From Spirogloea muscicola (lineage: Eukaryota; Streptophyta; Zygnematophyceae; Spirogloeales; Spirogloeaceae), in NCBI GenBank assembly GCA_009602725.1, contig WELB01000143.1, positions 282,314 through 317,829 of the forward strand: a stretch of DNA of 35,516 nt. Direction: 5' to 3'. Position 1 is the stretch's first letter; every line of letters begins with the position of its first letter. The translations under genes were made by a program, and so were the position numbers. The notes under the pieces were generated by a model that saw only the letters and a list, made by a program, of their open reading frames with translations, ran no database searches and was not told where the DNA came from. Shown in pieces: positions 24,472 through 33,114 of this stretch.

Positions 24472-25126
24472 TCAGACCTCCTCAAAGTGCTTTGCATAGT
24501 CGGCGTAGCTGGGCCTTGTGCGGGAGTTACTGTTGCTGCCAGCTAGTGGAGCTGGTGGAGGTGACCGCCAGCCAGCCCCACCCTTGCTGCCGTCCCGACC
24601 TGGTAGCGGGTGCTGGCCCACGGCGCCGCCGACGTCCCGATCAGGCCCTGCAGGCACGCCGAGCTGGCTGAGGATGTCGCGCGTGGCCTCCTCCGCCGCC
24701 TGGACCAGGCCCTCAATGTCGCCCACAAAGCCCCGCAGCACCCTGGGGAAGCTGCTGCCGATGCCGAAGGCGCCATCGCCAGGAGGCCCCGGCGCCAGCG
24801 GGCGGAGGTCCCTGCTGGGCGCGGCGGAGTCGTCGGCGCCGAAGAGGCGCGGCAGGAGCTCCGGGACGGCGCCGCCCTCGGCTGCGCCGCTGCCGCCATC
24901 GCTCCAGCGGAAGCCCGGCGGCGGCAGGAGTGGGACGGCATCGAGATCCTGGCGGCCGCCGTCGTCCTCCTCCTCCTGCCTCACCGACTCGACGACCTCC
25001 GGCGGCCTGCGGCGGCCGTCAGAGCAAGGTAAGGGGTCGTCGGCTCCATCAGCCGAGCCCGGCCTGGCTTTGCCGCAGCTGATGAAAGGCCCCTGGACCC
25101 TGGTCGAGCAAGCGGCGGCGGCGGCA

Positions 25127-25161
<35 letters not shown>

Positions 25162-25362
25162 TCACCGGCCCAGGCAACGGCGCACGACCTCGCGCCGCCG
25201 CTCGCACCGGCGGTACGGCGGGCCCTGCCCGCCCTCGCCGCCGTCTGCCACCGTCCGGCACGTCCGCGTCTCCACGGTGGAGTAGGAGCACCCCGCCTCG
25301 GCCTCGCCCTTCCAGCCGCCGTCGCAGCCGCCGCCGCCGCTGCCGCCGCGGCCGCCGGCCAT
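24472..25362 (-). CDS. Small Cys-containing protein resembling plant Fra a 1/Mal d 1-associated proteins, 2 exons
   Basis: Exons on the minus strand are 25362-25166 and 25006-24472, a 243-aa product. The start is the ATG at 25362-25360 (MAGGRGG), and the 159-bp intron is GT-AG with matching phase. The first part has Cys residues spaced as in the plant Mal d 1/Fra a 1-associated family: GCSYSTVETRTCRTV, then YRRCERRREVVRRCLGRPPE, followed by VVESVRQEEED. The second half has a Pro/Gly-rich linker and FVGDIEGLVQAAEEATRDIL, which resembles the family's conserved DIEAIE...FFEAAEE segment. In strawberry and apple these proteins were named for interaction with PR-10 allergens; the biochemical role is unknown. 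The match is by motif recall and a profile search would settle it. Several longer open frames on the plus strand here are GC-rich shadows. Confidence 0.68.
25113..25161 (-). repeat. Intronic CGG/CCG tract just after a splice donor
   Basis: On the minus strand the intron of the Fra a 1-associated-like gene starts GTGAGCC and passes straight into about 15 GCC units. The run occupies almost a third of this 159-bp intron. Confidence 0.85.
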
Positions 25363-25469
25363 GGCGCCGTGTAACCCGGGCCGGGCCACCAGCCAGCTAG
25401 CTAGCTGTCTGACGAAGAAACGTGCGACGGGAAGCACTGCTTCTTAGACCCGGCAGATTCTTTGCNCGC

Positions 25470-25509
<40 letters not shown>

Positions 25510-25519
25510 AGGGCAGGTG
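25363..25519. promoter_or_regulatory. Short bidirectional promoter region
   Basis: Only 157 bases separate the start codon of the minus-strand small protein (25362) from that of the plus-strand amylase (25520). The interval holds a (GCC)n run at about 25468-25508 and an N at 25466. No TATA box is seen. A shared divergent promoter is inferred from geometry alone. Confidence 0.45.
25466..25508. repeat. (GCC)n tract with an adjoining ambiguous base
   Basis: A run of about 12 GCC units follows an N at 25466. It lies in the presumed 5' UTR of the amylase gene. Its length may be misassembled. Confidence 0.8.
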
Positions 25520-28500
25520 ATGGAGACCTTGGCCTTCGCCCGGCCCGCCGCCGGCGCCTCCGGCAGTTGGAGCGAGCAGCGGCGGCGCATGCGATCGCCG
25601 GCTCCCCACGCCAGGCACTGTCTGCCCTGCCGCTTCTGTGCCCTGCTTGCCGCGATCACTACCGCTGTCGCCCTGCCAGGGCGCAGCAGAGCCGCCAAGC
25701 CGAGTGGCAGGCCACACCTACGAACCATTGTTCGCCTAAACCATCGTTCGCCGGTTGACTCCTCATCGCGAGCTGCGCTCGAGGAGCCGCACCTCGTTTG
25801 CGCCCGCGCGCTGCTGATCAGGCGATGGCACGTGATTCCTTCCAATCGCTACCTGTCCTCAGTCCAGGATCGGAGTGTTACAGAGGTAATTACTGAAAGC
25901 GGGTGCCACATCGCCTGCAGGTTGCACCTTGGGCAGCAATCCATGGTCAACCTGCGCCCAGCTCTGCTGCAGAAGCAGCGGATTCGGACAGTCTTCAGGG
26001 TTGAGGCATCCAGCTCACTGAAGGTAATCAAAGAAAATGAGCGTCCAGCTCAGCTGCATAAGCGCTCAGCATGTCTCGCTGATCCGTGATTAGCAGGTCT
26101 GCATAGTTGAATGTAATCTGCAGGATTATTACTCAGATGGGCTTCCGGAATTTTTAGCAGAGTTTCTACAGAAGGCCAATGCAACTTGGGTTTTGCTTCT
26201 TGCAGAATGAGGGTTCAGGCAGGCAGAGCTCCGATGACCCCAATGGTTCCCCACTGGCATCCTCGAGGTCGAAGACACTGGACTCCGATTCAGTGACGGC
26301 CTTAAGGGCTGCTCTGGTCGAGGCTGAGATGCGAGCAGCTGCAGCCGAGAAGGAGAAGAGGCAAGCCCTTGAGGCTCTTGCTGTAGCTGAAACAAAGGCT
26401 AATTCATATGCTGAGAACATGATCACGACCACTGGTGAGGGAAGCCGACCACAACTCATTAGTCAATGCTAGGATTATGTAGTCTCGCTAACTGACACTA
26501 TTGCTCTGCCTGAGAATCATGTGTTTCTATTCACCTCTTTCAAAGCGCAGTTTCTTGATAACGTGTTTGACTGCTTATAGCTGCCAGCTGGTCTCGGAAG
26601 GTCACAGCCGCCATCAGTAGACACTTTGCACTTGTAAAACAGCGATACTGCTTATGTGGTCTCCAATATCAGGAATTCTCACCTCGCAAGGTTCAGCTGT
26701 TGCTCCAGAATAATCGAGAAGAGTCTTATGACAGTACCAAATTTGCAGAGGAAGCTGTTGCTGAAGTGGAGTCAGCGAAGGCATCATTTCGAGGAGAAGT
26801 TGAGAAGCTTGCAAGGGAAAAGGATGCTTTGGAGCGTGAATTAGCAGAGACGAAGGAAAGCTCAATAAGTCTAGCCATCAAAGTTGAGAGGATGGCAGAA
26901 ATTGCTATCCAAGAGTCTACTGCACACATTGCAGAGGAGGCAAAGTTCAAGATAGCAGCAGCCAGAACGTCTCAGACTGATGCTGCTGCACAGCTTGAAG
27001 CTCGGATTCAAAAAGCGGCTGAAGAGTCTGCTGCAGCAGGTGAAAGTTGCTGATCAGTGCTTGGCTGTTGACAATGACGATCCTAGTAGCTTGTGATGCA
27101 CTGCAGAGAAATAAGCAATTGCACGCCACTGATGCTTGCCTTGTGTTTGTGATCAACAGTGGTAGAGGAGACGAGATCTATTATAGATAGTGCCATGGCT
27201 TCTGCTGAGATGGCCAAGGAGAATACAAGAAAGGCCGAGGAGGCGCTGCAGAGTCGCTTGGGACTCGTTGATGATCTAGCTCGAGCCCAAGAAACTATCA
27301 TGAGAGGGCAGGACACCACAGCAAGCTTGGAGCTCAAGTTGAGGGTATGAGGGCCTCTCTCTCTGACAGCTGATGCTGAAGATGATGATTGCTACTGACA
27401 CGTGCTCCCAGTCTTGAGCTTCAAACGTATCCTACTATACTAGACAATTGCAATGCGTAATCTCTATGTCCTGTCTATACGGCTTCCTTACTTGCTGTGA
27501 GCTTATGTGTCTGCCCGCTGATCTGATGAGCCTCATGTTTGGGGCAGCAAGCTGAGGATGCAGTGGTAAGAGCTGAATTGAGCACTAAGGTCAGTTACTA
27601 TCAACGCAGTCATTGACTGCACTTGCAGTACATACTGCTGGAGAATGTTCTTGGCACAAGGTGTACTGGAAGCTAAGTCAGTCCATGTTTTACTGCACTG
27701 AAACATCTATCTTACTTTGACGCAAGCTGACAATGCTTGCAGGCAGCAGAAGCTCGGGCCGAAGCCGCAGAGGCAAGGATGTCATCGGCGGAGAGTAAGC
27801 ACCTTTGTTGCCTGGTAGTCAGATAACATTGACCTATGCTATACCTCAATTCACGCTGGTGCCCTGCAAAAGTGCCACCGATGAACCGCTCGTGATAGGT
27901 TGACTGTGTGCTACAGTCTTCCGCTTTCACATGTACCGCTGGTTGACATTGATAAATTTGATAGTAGCATGTTGCTGCAGATGCTCTGCAAGAGATTCAG
28001 GACTTGTTTGGTAAAAAGGCAATTGAAAGAGAAGAAGCCTTTCACCATGCAGTAGACTCACTGAAGGTACCTCTCTTTTGTCATTCACGTTGGTCAATAA
28101 GCTATATGGTCTTCCGTCAATCCTCAAGAGGCAGTCCTAGATAGTCTATTGGCCATGTTGTCACTGTGACTTTGCAGCTATTTCAGTCCACAGTAGATAG
28201 ACCTGGTTACACGTCATTGCTTGCAGTCATGACTGGTAATGGCTTGCAATCGGTCAAGCAGGAAGCTGCAGAAGCAAGGGAAGAGGCTGCTGTCTTCAGC
28301 TACAAGGCTGAGATGGATAGCCTGCGAGCTGCTGCAGAGGCATCTCGGAAGGCAGAGAAGGTGCATTGCCAGCATCATCTTTGATGTGATCCGTCTGATG
28401 TACACTGGCTGGTCCTGCCGTGTCTGATTCATTGAGTCCGGCATTGGAAGCTTGCAAGCAACGTACAGCGGCCATGCGCTTGAATCTCTGTGGTATACTC

Positions 28501-31500
28501 AATTCAGGTGAAGGAGCAGGCGCTGGCCAGGCGGTTTGAAGCCCTGGAGCGCTCCCTTGTGGCCGTGGAGGAAAGGGCAGCTGCATGGCAACGGCGAGCT
28601 GAGGCTGTGGAAGACCTCCTTCAACAGGTAATATCAGAGGCAAGGTCTGGGTGCAGTGATCTTTGCAGCATTGTCGTGTTACTAACTGCTTCCTTGCACA
28701 CCATGTCATGAGGTTATGAACCCAACTGGAGAGTGATGCGAAGTTGATAGCCTTTGTGCTTGTCAGGTGAAAGAGAAAGGCTTCGATGTACTACGGCAAG
28801 CTGGTGAAGTTGGTGATGTACTGAACGGTGGGCGGATGGAGACGATGCTCGGCAAGTCGAACCAGAAATGGCAGCTTCTTGCGGAGGGCCCCAGAAGAGT
28901 GAGCCCAGACTGGATGCTGCGGAAGGGCCTCCGCAGAGGCGTTCTTCCACCTAGGCGCTCAGAGCCAGCAGAGCCAGTCGAAGCTTCAGCGTCCCTGGAC
29001 TTACCAGCACCTGGGGAAGTCTGGTCTATATTTGATCACAAGGTACATTCTCCTTTCAGCAGACGTCTTGGCTGAATCTGGAAAGCATAACATGTCACAA
29101 TTAGTCTAGTAGAGGCTTGGGCTGGGAACAGCCTGTGCTTTACAAATTTGTTGCAGTAGGTGCCCAACAATATGCGATCAGATCCTGAATGCTGCACATT
29201 CATTTCTCCTACTTTCATCCTTGACTTGTCAGGTTGTTGAGGATGATGTGTACACGAAGGAGGCTGAGCAGAGAGAGAGAGAAAGAATTGAGCTGGATGA
29301 GCAGCGTCGCAATCTGGAGAAGACCTTGAAGAGGGAAGCGGTGCCTCCACCTCGCATCAAGCGCGGGAAGACTCCAGAGGATCATGAAGATAAACTAGGT
29401 TCGACCATCTCGTATGGGTTGAGGCATTAGCAAATGAGTCTAATATCAGGACTCTAGCCCTGCTTGCTGCTTCTGACCTGCCAGATGACTGCAACACACC
29501 ATACTGCCTAACTTGATCTGGGAGTTTGGACTCCTGCATTCTGCATGATTTGTGCCTTCAGTATGCTAATCACCAAGTTAACTATATGAGGTACATTTGT
29601 GGTTCTGGCCTTGCTTTAAGAGTGCGCAGCTGAACATCTGGAATTCTCCTCAGCTTGTCTCACCGTGTTCTTTTCAACCATTGCAGAACCTGGTACGGGG
29701 AGTGGTCGCGAGATTGTTGTAAGCACGATGGCACTCAGAAACCCATCATGCACTAAGTGCAGACAACAGTTCTTGCCACGACGCGTGGAATGTTCTGGGT
29801 TGCTCCTATCACGATCACGTTTTTCCTCGCACATCAGGATGTCAACCACGTTGTAAGACGTGATAAATGTCAATCACGTAGTATAAGAATTTCGTCTTGG
29901 ATACTAATGGACATTATTGGACATAATTTGTACTGCAGTTCCAGGGCTTCAATTGGGAAAGCTGGAGGAGAAAATGGTACCACGACCTGTCCCCACGTGC
30001 CGCGGATCTTGCAGCCAGTGGCGTGACCACAATCTGGCTTCCTCCGCCGACAGAGTCAGTCGCTCCTCAAGGTGGAATTGACTCTCTTCTTATGCTTTGC
30101 CTCCTTTGTGCAGAATTATTGCCATGATAGCTGGTCTGATGTCTGCGGTCAATTGATGTTTAGAAATTGGATATGTATTGCAGTGCTTGTTGCCTGATAG
30201 AATCAACTTGTGCCCTACACAACGCAGGATACATGCCTGGCGACTTGTACAATCTTAACTCTGCATACGGCACAGTTGATGAGCTGAGGAATTGCATTGA
30301 GGAATTCCACAAGCATGACATGCTGGTGAGGCTGCTGTGTAATCCATCTGACAGCAGGCACAGAATCTGTGGCTTGTGGAAGGGGACTACGTTGTTAGTG
30401 TCAAAGTCAGCACCTTTGTCTTGCAACAATGAAGACTATGTTTCATTACAATAGCTTCATACTCGGGTGTTCCCCCGAGCATCACAATTAGGAGTCTGCA
30501 AGTGGCTGGTGGCAGGCAGGCGCTTCTCAATGACTTGGGGGCAAACTTCAATATGGTGCAGGTATTAGGAGACGTTGTTCTTAACCATCGGTGCGCACAG
30601 AAGCAGGTGATATTCTAGGCTTAACATTGTGCGAGGCTCGTTGCTGGAAGCACCTCCGACCCGTTTTGGCTTAGAATGTGATCTCAGCAGGAGTGCTGTC
30701 TATCAGCCTTGGTGGTGAGCATGAAAGGCATGACAACTGTGATTCTGCTTACGACTGCAGAATGCAGAGGGTATCTGGAATGTATATGGAGGGAAGTTGG
30801 CTTGGGGCCCTGAAGCAATTGTGAGGGACGATCCAAATTTCCAGGGGCTTGGCAACCCCTCCAGCGGTTTGTATATTTCTCTGTATGCTAGACCTCATGT
30901 CTATTGTCTGCATTTGTAAGCATCTAGGTGTATTGATGTTACAATATGTACCCAATGCAATGACCGCAGGTATGGTAATGTCACAATACGCTCTAAAAGC
31001 TTCCTACCAGCAACAGACTTGATGCACCAACTGAGGCACGCTTGAGACTCACCTACTCTTACATTATGGCTGCCAGTAAGTGTGGTGTACCGGGGTCGTG
31101 AGTCTGTGAGTGGAAGCTTGAACCTGGGGTTTGCCACATACTAAACCTTCGCCAGCCTTCTGAAGCAGGAGATATCTTCCATGCGGCTCCCAACGTTGAT
31201 CACTCACAAGAATTTGTGAGGCGAGACATCAAGGGGTGGCTGAACTGGCTCCGTGCAGACATCGGTTATGATGGCTGGCGCCTTGACTTTGCTAAGTACG
31301 ATGTGTGCCTTATGCAGATCTCCCTACTTTCTAAGTTACTCCTTAATTGCAGCTTCTGTCATGCACCGTGCTCAAATCACCTTGTGTTCACGAAGTGAAA
31401 AGAGCTGGCCATGTAGTCACTGCAGTCTGGCATGCTTGAGGGTTTCACTTACAGCGCTACAGGTCGCATTGTACCATGTCATTTGTGAGCAACGTATCTG

Positions 31501-33114
31501 CGAGTTGCTAGTACTTCTGCCAAGGTTTTCACCATATGTCATATGGCCGCAAGTATGTTCAGGGGTTTCTGGGGCGGATTTGTGAAGGAGTACATTGAAG
31601 CTTCAAAGCCAGCATTCTCCATCGGAGAATACTGGGACAGCCTCGCCTATGAGGGAGGAAATGTATGCTACAATCAAGGTCAGTGCAGTCTTAACCTGGT
31701 GATGAGAATGTAGCAAGGGAATATTTTTGAGTAGTTATTAAACTGTCCCAGTCATTCTGCAACTTCAATAGTGGAGAATTCCAAGGCTGTAGTTGATACA
31801 GCTACAAAGCCCGAGCCTGGAGTGAGGTTACAGGATTTTCTGGGTATGAATGACGCATGGCATGTCATCTATAGGAAGAGCATGCAATCAAACTTCTTGC
31901 TGCAGTCATCACTTTCCACTGTTGCTAGCTTACAACACACTCAATGTGCACTTCACAGATGCACATCGGCAACGAATTATTAATTGGGTAAATGCCACGG
32001 GTGGGACTTCGTCTGCTTTTGACGTCACAACCAAGGTACTCGCTTGCCCAGGTTGGCAGCAGTTTCGCTGGGTTCTTGCCAACTCTTCTGCATGTTAGGT
32101 TAACATGGAATATCTATCTCATGTTGGCCTTTCAGATCCATCCTATTTGACTACTGGTGCTTGTTATCATGAGTTAGCTGACCGCAGGCAGGATGTGCTT
32201 CCATTTCATTGTGATCAGGACAGTAGATCCTGAAGGCCAGTCTTATGCCATTTTCATCTTTGACACATACAAATCTTTGGCAGGGCATCCTACACTCTGC
32301 ATTGCACAGCGAGTACTGGCGACTAATTGACCCCCAGGGTAAGCCCCCGGGGGTAATGGGATGGTGGCCATCGCGGGCAGTAACATTCCTCGAGAACCAC
32401 GACACAGGGTCCACGCAGGTCAATCTGACCTCCTTTGCCTCAGTGTTCACTCTAGTTTGAGTACTCGCCAAACTACCGTTCAGAGCTCTCCAGACAAAGG
32501 TGCTCACTACAACATACTCTACGCATGCCACTGCTTACAGGGTCACTGGCCATTCCCGCGCGACAAGTTGCTGCAAGGCTATGCGTACATTCTTACACAT
32601 CCCGGAACGGTAGGCCATGCACAGTTATCTAGCAGTCAGAGCAAGCACTGGGCATTGAGCATGAGCTGCAGTCCCTCTTATATGGCGTGCCTGAGGAGAT
32701 GTTGCTGGCAGACATTCACATTTGTGGCTTCCTAGACACTTGTTGGAATGGTTGTCTGGTTGTGGCAACATTGGATGCGCTTGATGTGTGGAGCTTGTGT
32801 GGTAATGCTTCAGTACCGACTCATGTTCGCCCATGATGCAGCCTGTGATCTTCTACGATCACTTTTATGACTTCGGCCTCCATGACCAAATTGCGGAGCT
32901 CGTCGCTGTGCGGAACCGGACAGGCGTCCACTGCCGCAGCTCAGTGATGATCTTCCACGCCGTTGCTGAGGGCTATGTCGCACTAGTGGGCGATTCTCTT
33001 ACAGTGAAGCTTGGACCCCTGGACTGGAATCCGTCCAAGCAGGACAACCTGATTGGCCAATGGAACCGGATTATAGATTACGGGGCTGACTACCAAGTGT
33101 GGGAGAAGGCCTAA
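25520..33114 (+). CDS. Coiled-coil/GH13 alpha-amylase fusion protein, ~23 exons
   Basis: Exons: 25520-26023, 26206-26434, 26581-26600, 26673-27039, 27160-27344, 27548-27589, 27743-27794, 27981-28066, about 28262-28360, 28508-28627, 28767-29042, 29233-29398, 29687-29718, 29939-30071, 30228-30325, 30562-30606, 30761-30866, 31169-31295, 31563-31678, 31959-32035, 32284-32418, 32541-32609, 32842-33114. All phases agree; the product is about 1118 aa. Residues 1-100 are rich in Arg, Ala and Ser with few acids, so plastid targeting is likely (inference). Residues ~170-570 are Glu/Lys/Ala-rich coiled coil. Residues ~570-660 form a distinct block ([28 protein letters not shown]). From ~716, [11 protein letters not shown] leads into FQGFNWESW and a complete GH13 domain with [15 protein letters not shown] (nucleophile Asp ~893), GEYWD (acid/base Glu ~918) and FLENHD (Asp ~1000). 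It should hydrolyse alpha-1,4 glucan (starch). The 20-bp exon 3 and the start of exon 9 are the least certain. Confidence 0.88.

Follow-up and report, generated by a model that had tools for sequence, protein, structure and literature searches.

We found in the window (the whole 35,516-nucleotide stretch of Spirogloea muscicola contig WELB01000143.1 that was analysed) a single plus-strand gene, at 25943-33114, whose 22 exons splice into one frame of 945 residues. From N to C terminus the predicted protein carries a short basic N-terminus, a proline-free coiled coil (approximately residues 52-410), a 132-residue middle segment (411-542), and a complete GH13 alpha-amylase part (543-945). The frame is continuous, the catalytic residues are in place, the coil has heptad periodicity, and dN/dS between genomic copies is low in the coil, the middle block, and the GH13 part. 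The gene is probably an algal addition to a known amylase group, with a long coil that is apparently undescribed in the literature examined.

We searched the 153-Mb assembly (471 contigs; the window gene lies on contig C143) and found the gene twice more, on contigs C27 and C112. With the start at ATG 25943 and exon 3 beginning at 26749, all three copies encode 945 residues with zero indels and zero internal stops, so that the coil exons, the middle block, and the full GH13 part are in phase in every copy, as the earlier sequence-only reading had proposed from one. All 21 introns have AG/GT splice sites in each of the three copies. When the DNA of the three copies was aligned, the corrected exons were gap-free and 89.5%-100% identical to those of the other two copies, and the introns are 78%-91% identical. 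The copies most likely reflect the triplicated zygnematophyte genome of S. muscicola; they are recent duplicates and are therefore no sign of deep conservation.

Two features of the first gene model were rejected on comparison of the copies. The start had been placed at 25520, where frame-breaking indels occur between copies within 25520-25942 and where in-frame stops lie upstream of ATG 25943 in C27 (by 57 nt) and in C112 (by 189 nt). Judging from these alignments, the coding sequence most likely starts at 25943 rather than at 25520; the copy in the window, however, has 498 nt of open frame 5' of ATG 25943, with ATG 25520 in frame, so a longer protein could still be made from that copy alone. 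A longer exon 3 that includes 26608-26748 is interrupted in both other copies, by one stop in C112 and by two stops plus a frame shift in C27. Immediately 5' of 25520, a stretch of 420 bases is 94%-95% identical between copies outside gaps of 65-68 columns, which is above the identity of the introns.

Table 1. Parts of the coiled-coil amylase gene, with positions in the window and what the three genomic copies or profile searches give for each
Feature	Position	Strand	Evidence
5' UTR or non-coding, most likely	25520..25942	+	83.5-84.2% identity, 27 gap columns vs each copy
Exon 1, ATG and basic N-terminus, aa 1-27, transit-peptide-like	25943..26023	+	gap-free, 74/81 bases identical per copy
Exon 2, Ser-rich linker; coil from about nt 26278 (aa 52)	26206..26434	+	95.6% identity to both copies, gap-free
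Exon 3, coil, corrected acceptor	26749..27039	+	93.1% and 94.5% identity, gap-free; preceding stretch with stops in both copies
Exon 4, coil	27160..27344	+	gap-free, stop-free in three copies
Exon 5, coil	27548..27589	+	gap-free, stop-free in three copies
Exon 6, coil	27743..27794	+	gap-free, stop-free in three copies
Exon 7, coil	27981..28066	+	gap-free, stop-free in three copies
Exon 8, coil	28262..28360	+	gap-free, stop-free in three copies
Exon 9, coil	28508..28627	+	98.3% identity to both copies
Exon 10, coil end (to nt 28811) and middle block aa 411-487 (nt 28812-29042)	28767..29042	+	0-1 replacements per copy pair (aa 411-487)
Exon 11, charged segment and linker, aa 488-542	29233..29398	+	0-1 replacements per copy pair
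Exon 12, GH13 start, without own start codon	29687..29718	+	open upstream frame without Met back to stop at 29617
Exon 13, GH13	29939..30071	+	rice amylase alignment; gap-free, stop-free in three copies
Exon 14, GH13	30228..30325	+	gap-free, stop-free in three copies
Exon 15, GH13, VVLNHRC region	30562..30606	+	100% identity to both copies
Exon 16, GH13	30761..30866	+	gap-free, stop-free in three copies
Exon 17, GH13, catalytic Asp720 at 31285-31287	31169..31295	+	kept in three copies
Exon 18, GH13, catalytic Glu745 at 31627-31629	31563..31678	+	kept in three copies
Exon 19, GH13	31959..32035	+	gap-free, stop-free in three copies
Exon 20, GH13, Trp814-Trp815 at 32362-32367, catalytic Asp827 at 32401-32403	32284..32418	+	kept in three copies
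Exon 21, GH13	32541..32609	+	gap-free, stop-free in three copies
Exon 22, barrel end, C-terminal beta-sheet domain, stop	32842..33114	+	Alpha-amyl_C2 PF07821, E 7.1e-14

The GH13 part is complete, as had been claimed from the window: it matches rice alpha-amylase I-1 (3wn6; E = 8.8e-132) along its whole length and combines the catalytic Asp/Glu/Asp (D720, E745, and D827) with a full catalytic and C-terminal beta-sheet domain, as in plant-type GH13 enzymes. These three residues and the Trp814-Trp815 pair are kept in all three copies, and dN/dS over the three copy pairs is 0.030-0.036. Consecutive tryptophans are reported to be conserved at surface binding site 1 of plant amylases (Ju et al. 2019; PMC6426938), and the pair corresponds to that site. 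A Pfam scan of the 1133-residue first model found no match to a carbohydrate-binding domain (CBM), which holds also for the 945-residue protein, since the corrected protein is the first model minus two stretches. The weak Pfam matches of the first model (SPT2_N, DUF4186, and AMT4_dom_C) fell under the curated cut-offs; an NCBIfam scan of the same model gave 21 families up to E = 0.01, nearly all of alpha-amylase/GH13 type and none above its cut-off.

The N-terminus is basic and Ser-containing (six basic residues and one acidic residue in positions 1-27), a composition like that of a transit peptide. Residues 1-51 are the most variable part of the protein among the three copies, with differences at six of 51 positions and a dN/dS of about 0.19 in two copy pairs (undefined in the third). 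The coil that follows (359 residues, encoded in nine exons, 2 to 10) is 23% Ala and 17% Glu and lacks proline altogether; the longest proline-free run in the protein spans 393 residues, a length reached in none of 5000 shuffles. A heptad score computed in windows, so that shifts of register are tolerated, was devised after the result of a Fourier test had been seen; it gave z = 4.58, 4.53, and 4.82 for windows of 21, 28, and 42, compared with z = 0.9-1.0 for the GH13 part. Since none of 300 shuffles is as high at any of the three window sizes, the coil signal exceeds what composition gives. The Fourier test itself, made on the whole segment, was not significant (326/2000 and 559/2000 shuffles as high); this fits a coil whose register shifts, and it weakens the support for the coil relative to the heptad score taken alone. 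The sequence-only reading had described a coil of about 400 residues in about ten exons: Its existence is borne out by the heptad score and the shuffles, and its size comes down to about 360 residues in nine exons. Among the three copies 20 of the 359 coil positions differ, with dN/dS of 0.09-0.12 over the three pairs. A search of the genome with the coil and middle block (residues 1-542) gave at least 27 exon matches, all of them in the three copies.

The middle segment differs among the copies at only two of 132 positions, against seven of 403 in the GH13 part. Over the three pairs dN/dS is 0.00-0.08 for residues 411-487 and 0.00-0.07 for residues 488-542, values that rest on small counts (the block has at most one replacement in any pair) from pairs that are not independent. 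The segment thus varies as little as the catalytic domain, a conservation that holds between recent copies only. It found no Pfam match up to E = 1 and a single, chance-level match in the PDB (E = 0.65), in keeping with the suggestion that the block is unnamed. The motifs that the sequence-only reading quoted for the block fall within residues 416-449 once the protein is corrected. Comparable proteins of land plants seem to have a similar segment. It is conceivable, though in our view unlikely, that the segment is an undescribed plant-lineage domain coupling a coil scaffold to an amylase, in a design that would predate land plants and in which protein contacts, and not a CBM, would set the place or the activity of the enzyme.

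We lean, by a little, toward the following reading taken as a whole. The gene product would be a working endo-acting alpha-amylase, probably in the chloroplast, and a member of the AMY6 group of plant amylases. Its N-terminal coil, in place of a CBM, would multimerize the enzyme or, at the starch granule, dock it on another protein with a coiled coil; the joint between coil and catalytic domain would be set by the conserved middle segment. Amylase activity, plastid location, docking, and AMY6 membership are what we infer from the features above. The coil may have taken over the role of the CBM in AMY3, by analogy with plastid coiled-coil scaffolds: PTST1 is proposed to sit on the granule as a scaffold and to contact enzymes via its coil (PMC2653042), and MFP1 fixes where starch granules start in Arabidopsis plastids (PMC10801857). 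Docking of the window protein at the granule would be a parallel to these systems.

It is also possible, though doubtful, that the coil only dimerizes or oligomerizes the amylase, or keeps it inhibited until a signal releases it, with no recruitment to the granule. The 393-residue run and the heptad periodicity suit self-association equally well as docking, no partner is known for the coil, and a middle segment that is conserved between copies like the enzyme could be a regulatory latch. Indirectly against this, the available text of the literature on plastid coiled-coil starch proteins stresses contacts with other proteins. That the protein has left starch metabolism is very improbable. There is a streptophyte precedent in MKIP1, a branching-enzyme relative now involved in plastid intron splicing that has lost two catalytic aspartates (PMC13172542); the window gene, in contrast, keeps the full set of three catalytic residues along with the Trp pair, and its GH13 part has the low dN/dS given above. 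MKIP1, a class III branching enzyme, is described as having lost its catalytic triad and as carrying a CBM48, whereas the window protein keeps its triad and has no CBM match.

The evidence for one gene is strong but indirect: The coil, the middle block, and the GH13 part appear to form a single unit, and a wrongful fusion in the model of two adjacent genes, one for a coiled-coil protein and one for an amylase, is highly improbable, since the order and frame are identical in three copies, the coil frame runs into the GH13 part without a terminating stop, and the first codon of exon 12 is split, with one base contributed by exon 11 and two by exon 12. In favor of two genes, the intron that separates the parts (29399-29686; 288 nt) ranks third in length among the 21. 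We rejected an independent amylase gene with its start in exon 12 or 13, since the frames running into these exons have no Met downstream of the nearest upstream stop. A separate amylase would need a start within the middle block, within the coil, or in an exon outside the model.

Among the relatives within the genome, a search with exons 10-22 gave at least 67 matches, nine other amylase loci among them. A GRAS search of the same genome gave 92 exon matches, several in threes by eye, and matches in none of 14 control genomes; the threes again fit the triplicated genome of S. muscicola. The closest of the nine other amylase loci, C47, shares 214 of 340 GH13 residues with the window gene (62.9%) and the remaining eight 40.2%-51.7%, identities computed over stitched, partial GH13 columns. 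Identity to rice AmyI-1 is 197/390 (50.5%) and to two bacterial sequences 43.4% and 44.9%. In a 15-sequence tree built from sequences other than AMY6, the window gene stands beside C47 with weak support (66). Further upstream of C47, on the same strand, lies a partial match to PF23166 (36-78 of 121), the sole match to this family in the genome search. We take PF23166 to be the CBM45 region of AMY3 and GWD1, and C47 is a candidate for the CBM45 type (AMY5/AMY3). In the regions upstream of six other amylase loci, inspection by eye of frames of at least 75 residues showed no obvious coil, but most coil exons of the window gene fall below that length; locus L033 gave no frame, and L034 and L035 carry long runs of N.

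Beyond this genome, no relative with a coil or middle block was found in the PDB or in contig collections that hold no plant genomes; the null in those collections therefore says nothing about rarity. One such collection gave 10 pattern matches, which led to two bacterial GH13 loci, and a viral contig collection gave zero. Within the window, a Pfam scan of ten frames (of 31 listed at ≥140 residues) named no neighbor.

The sequence-only reading had mentioned a less-studied plant group with this arrangement, and AMY6 of Ju et al. is consistent with that mention. These authors split plant amylases into AMY1-AMY6, with AMY6 adjoining AMY5, the CBM45 type; both have an N-terminal extension of 460-570 residues and predicted transit peptides (PMC6426938). 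The 542 residues before the GH13 part of the window protein fall inside that range. AMY6 is reported from four basal land plants, Amborella, two monocots, and almost all main dicot lineages except Citrus and Brassicaceae, and from 0 of 11 green algae sampled according to the Results, the Discussion being less clear; the main text has no word beginning "coil" and mentions neither the coil nor the middle block (PMC6426938). The window gene thus resembles AMY6 in an extension of similar length, and perhaps in a GH13 part next to the AMY5 type, but it comes from an alga and has a coil of which that main text makes no mention. Going by the published description of AMY6, and not by AMY6 sequences, the gene is most likely a streptophyte-algal member of this group.

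The Arabidopsis AMY3 type (AMY5) is similar in that C47, the closest GH13 locus compared in the genome, is probably of that type, but it has CBM45 modules where the window protein has a coil of about 360 residues and no CBM match. The absence of a coil from ordinary plant amylases, as stated in the sequence-only reading, needs some qualification, since a survey from 2008 gives coiled-coil predictions for Arabidopsis AMY3 that are at least moderate (PMC2653042). The secreted cereal amylases (rice AmyI-1, barley AMY1 and AMY2) align end to end in their complete catalytic and C-terminal domains, whereas their solved chains, of 403-414 residues, have no such N-terminal extension. PTST1 (At5g39790), MFP1, SS4, and other plastid coiled-coil starch proteins are alike in having a long coiled coil in a starch setting, a likeness of description and not of compared sequences. 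By their domain make-up these proteins are not alpha-amylases; PTST proteins combine a coiled coil with a CBM48 and have no hydrolase, whereas the window protein has a GH13 part and no CBM match in the Pfam scan. Among the literature matches listed, judged by titles and the beginnings of abstracts, we recognized no alpha-amylase with a long coil, and the available text of the cassava AMY3 and moss GWD literature contains nothing on a coiled-coil amylase.

Starch enzymes of plastids are generally assumed to get to the granule either by way of CBMs or with the help of separate scaffolds built on coiled coils. A long coil in the amylase itself would merge these two kinds of granule targeting, and the gene offers a defined deletion series (coil, middle segment) for asking what the coil does. 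If it represents AMY6 in a streptophyte alga, the AMY6 line would be older than land plants.

The Pfam scan of the window, which covered 10 of the 31 listed frames as unspliced translations, found no match at E 0.001 for any of the nine long open frames that it tested in positions 1 to 25161. The frame scanned on the 3′ side of the coiled-coil alpha-amylase gene is described in the table below.

Open frame on the 3′ side of the amylase gene
Feature	Position	Strand	Pfam scan (unspliced)
Gln-, His-, and Gly-rich frame, 296 aa	34283-35173	minus	Weak TFIIA match, below its cut-off

Upstream of the gene, positions 25100-25519 are 94%-95% identical across its three copies in the genome (gaps left out), which exceeds the identity of the introns; a further transcribed or regulatory element may lie within this stretch. 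Two N bases occur in the window (25466 and 7467), and the first of these adjoins a long GCC repeat that comes after it. Since the other gene copies diverge by dozens of bases in this repeat region, the assembly may be uncertain at the 5′ end near 25466.

Elsewhere in the genome, an open frame of 394 aa lies upstream of the amylase on contig C131 (locus L032); it contains a YADD motif and looks by eye like a non-LTR reverse transcriptase.

The same genome also carries an additional amylase-like gene in three copies: L037 (contig C10), L038 (C64), and L039 (C1). All three have the motif NHSTGS, in contrast to NHDTGS in both the window gene and rice alpha-amylase, and the third catalytic Asp is thus replaced by Ser in every copy. 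Judged from this motif, the gene is a candidate non-catalytic amylase that has possibly been retained.
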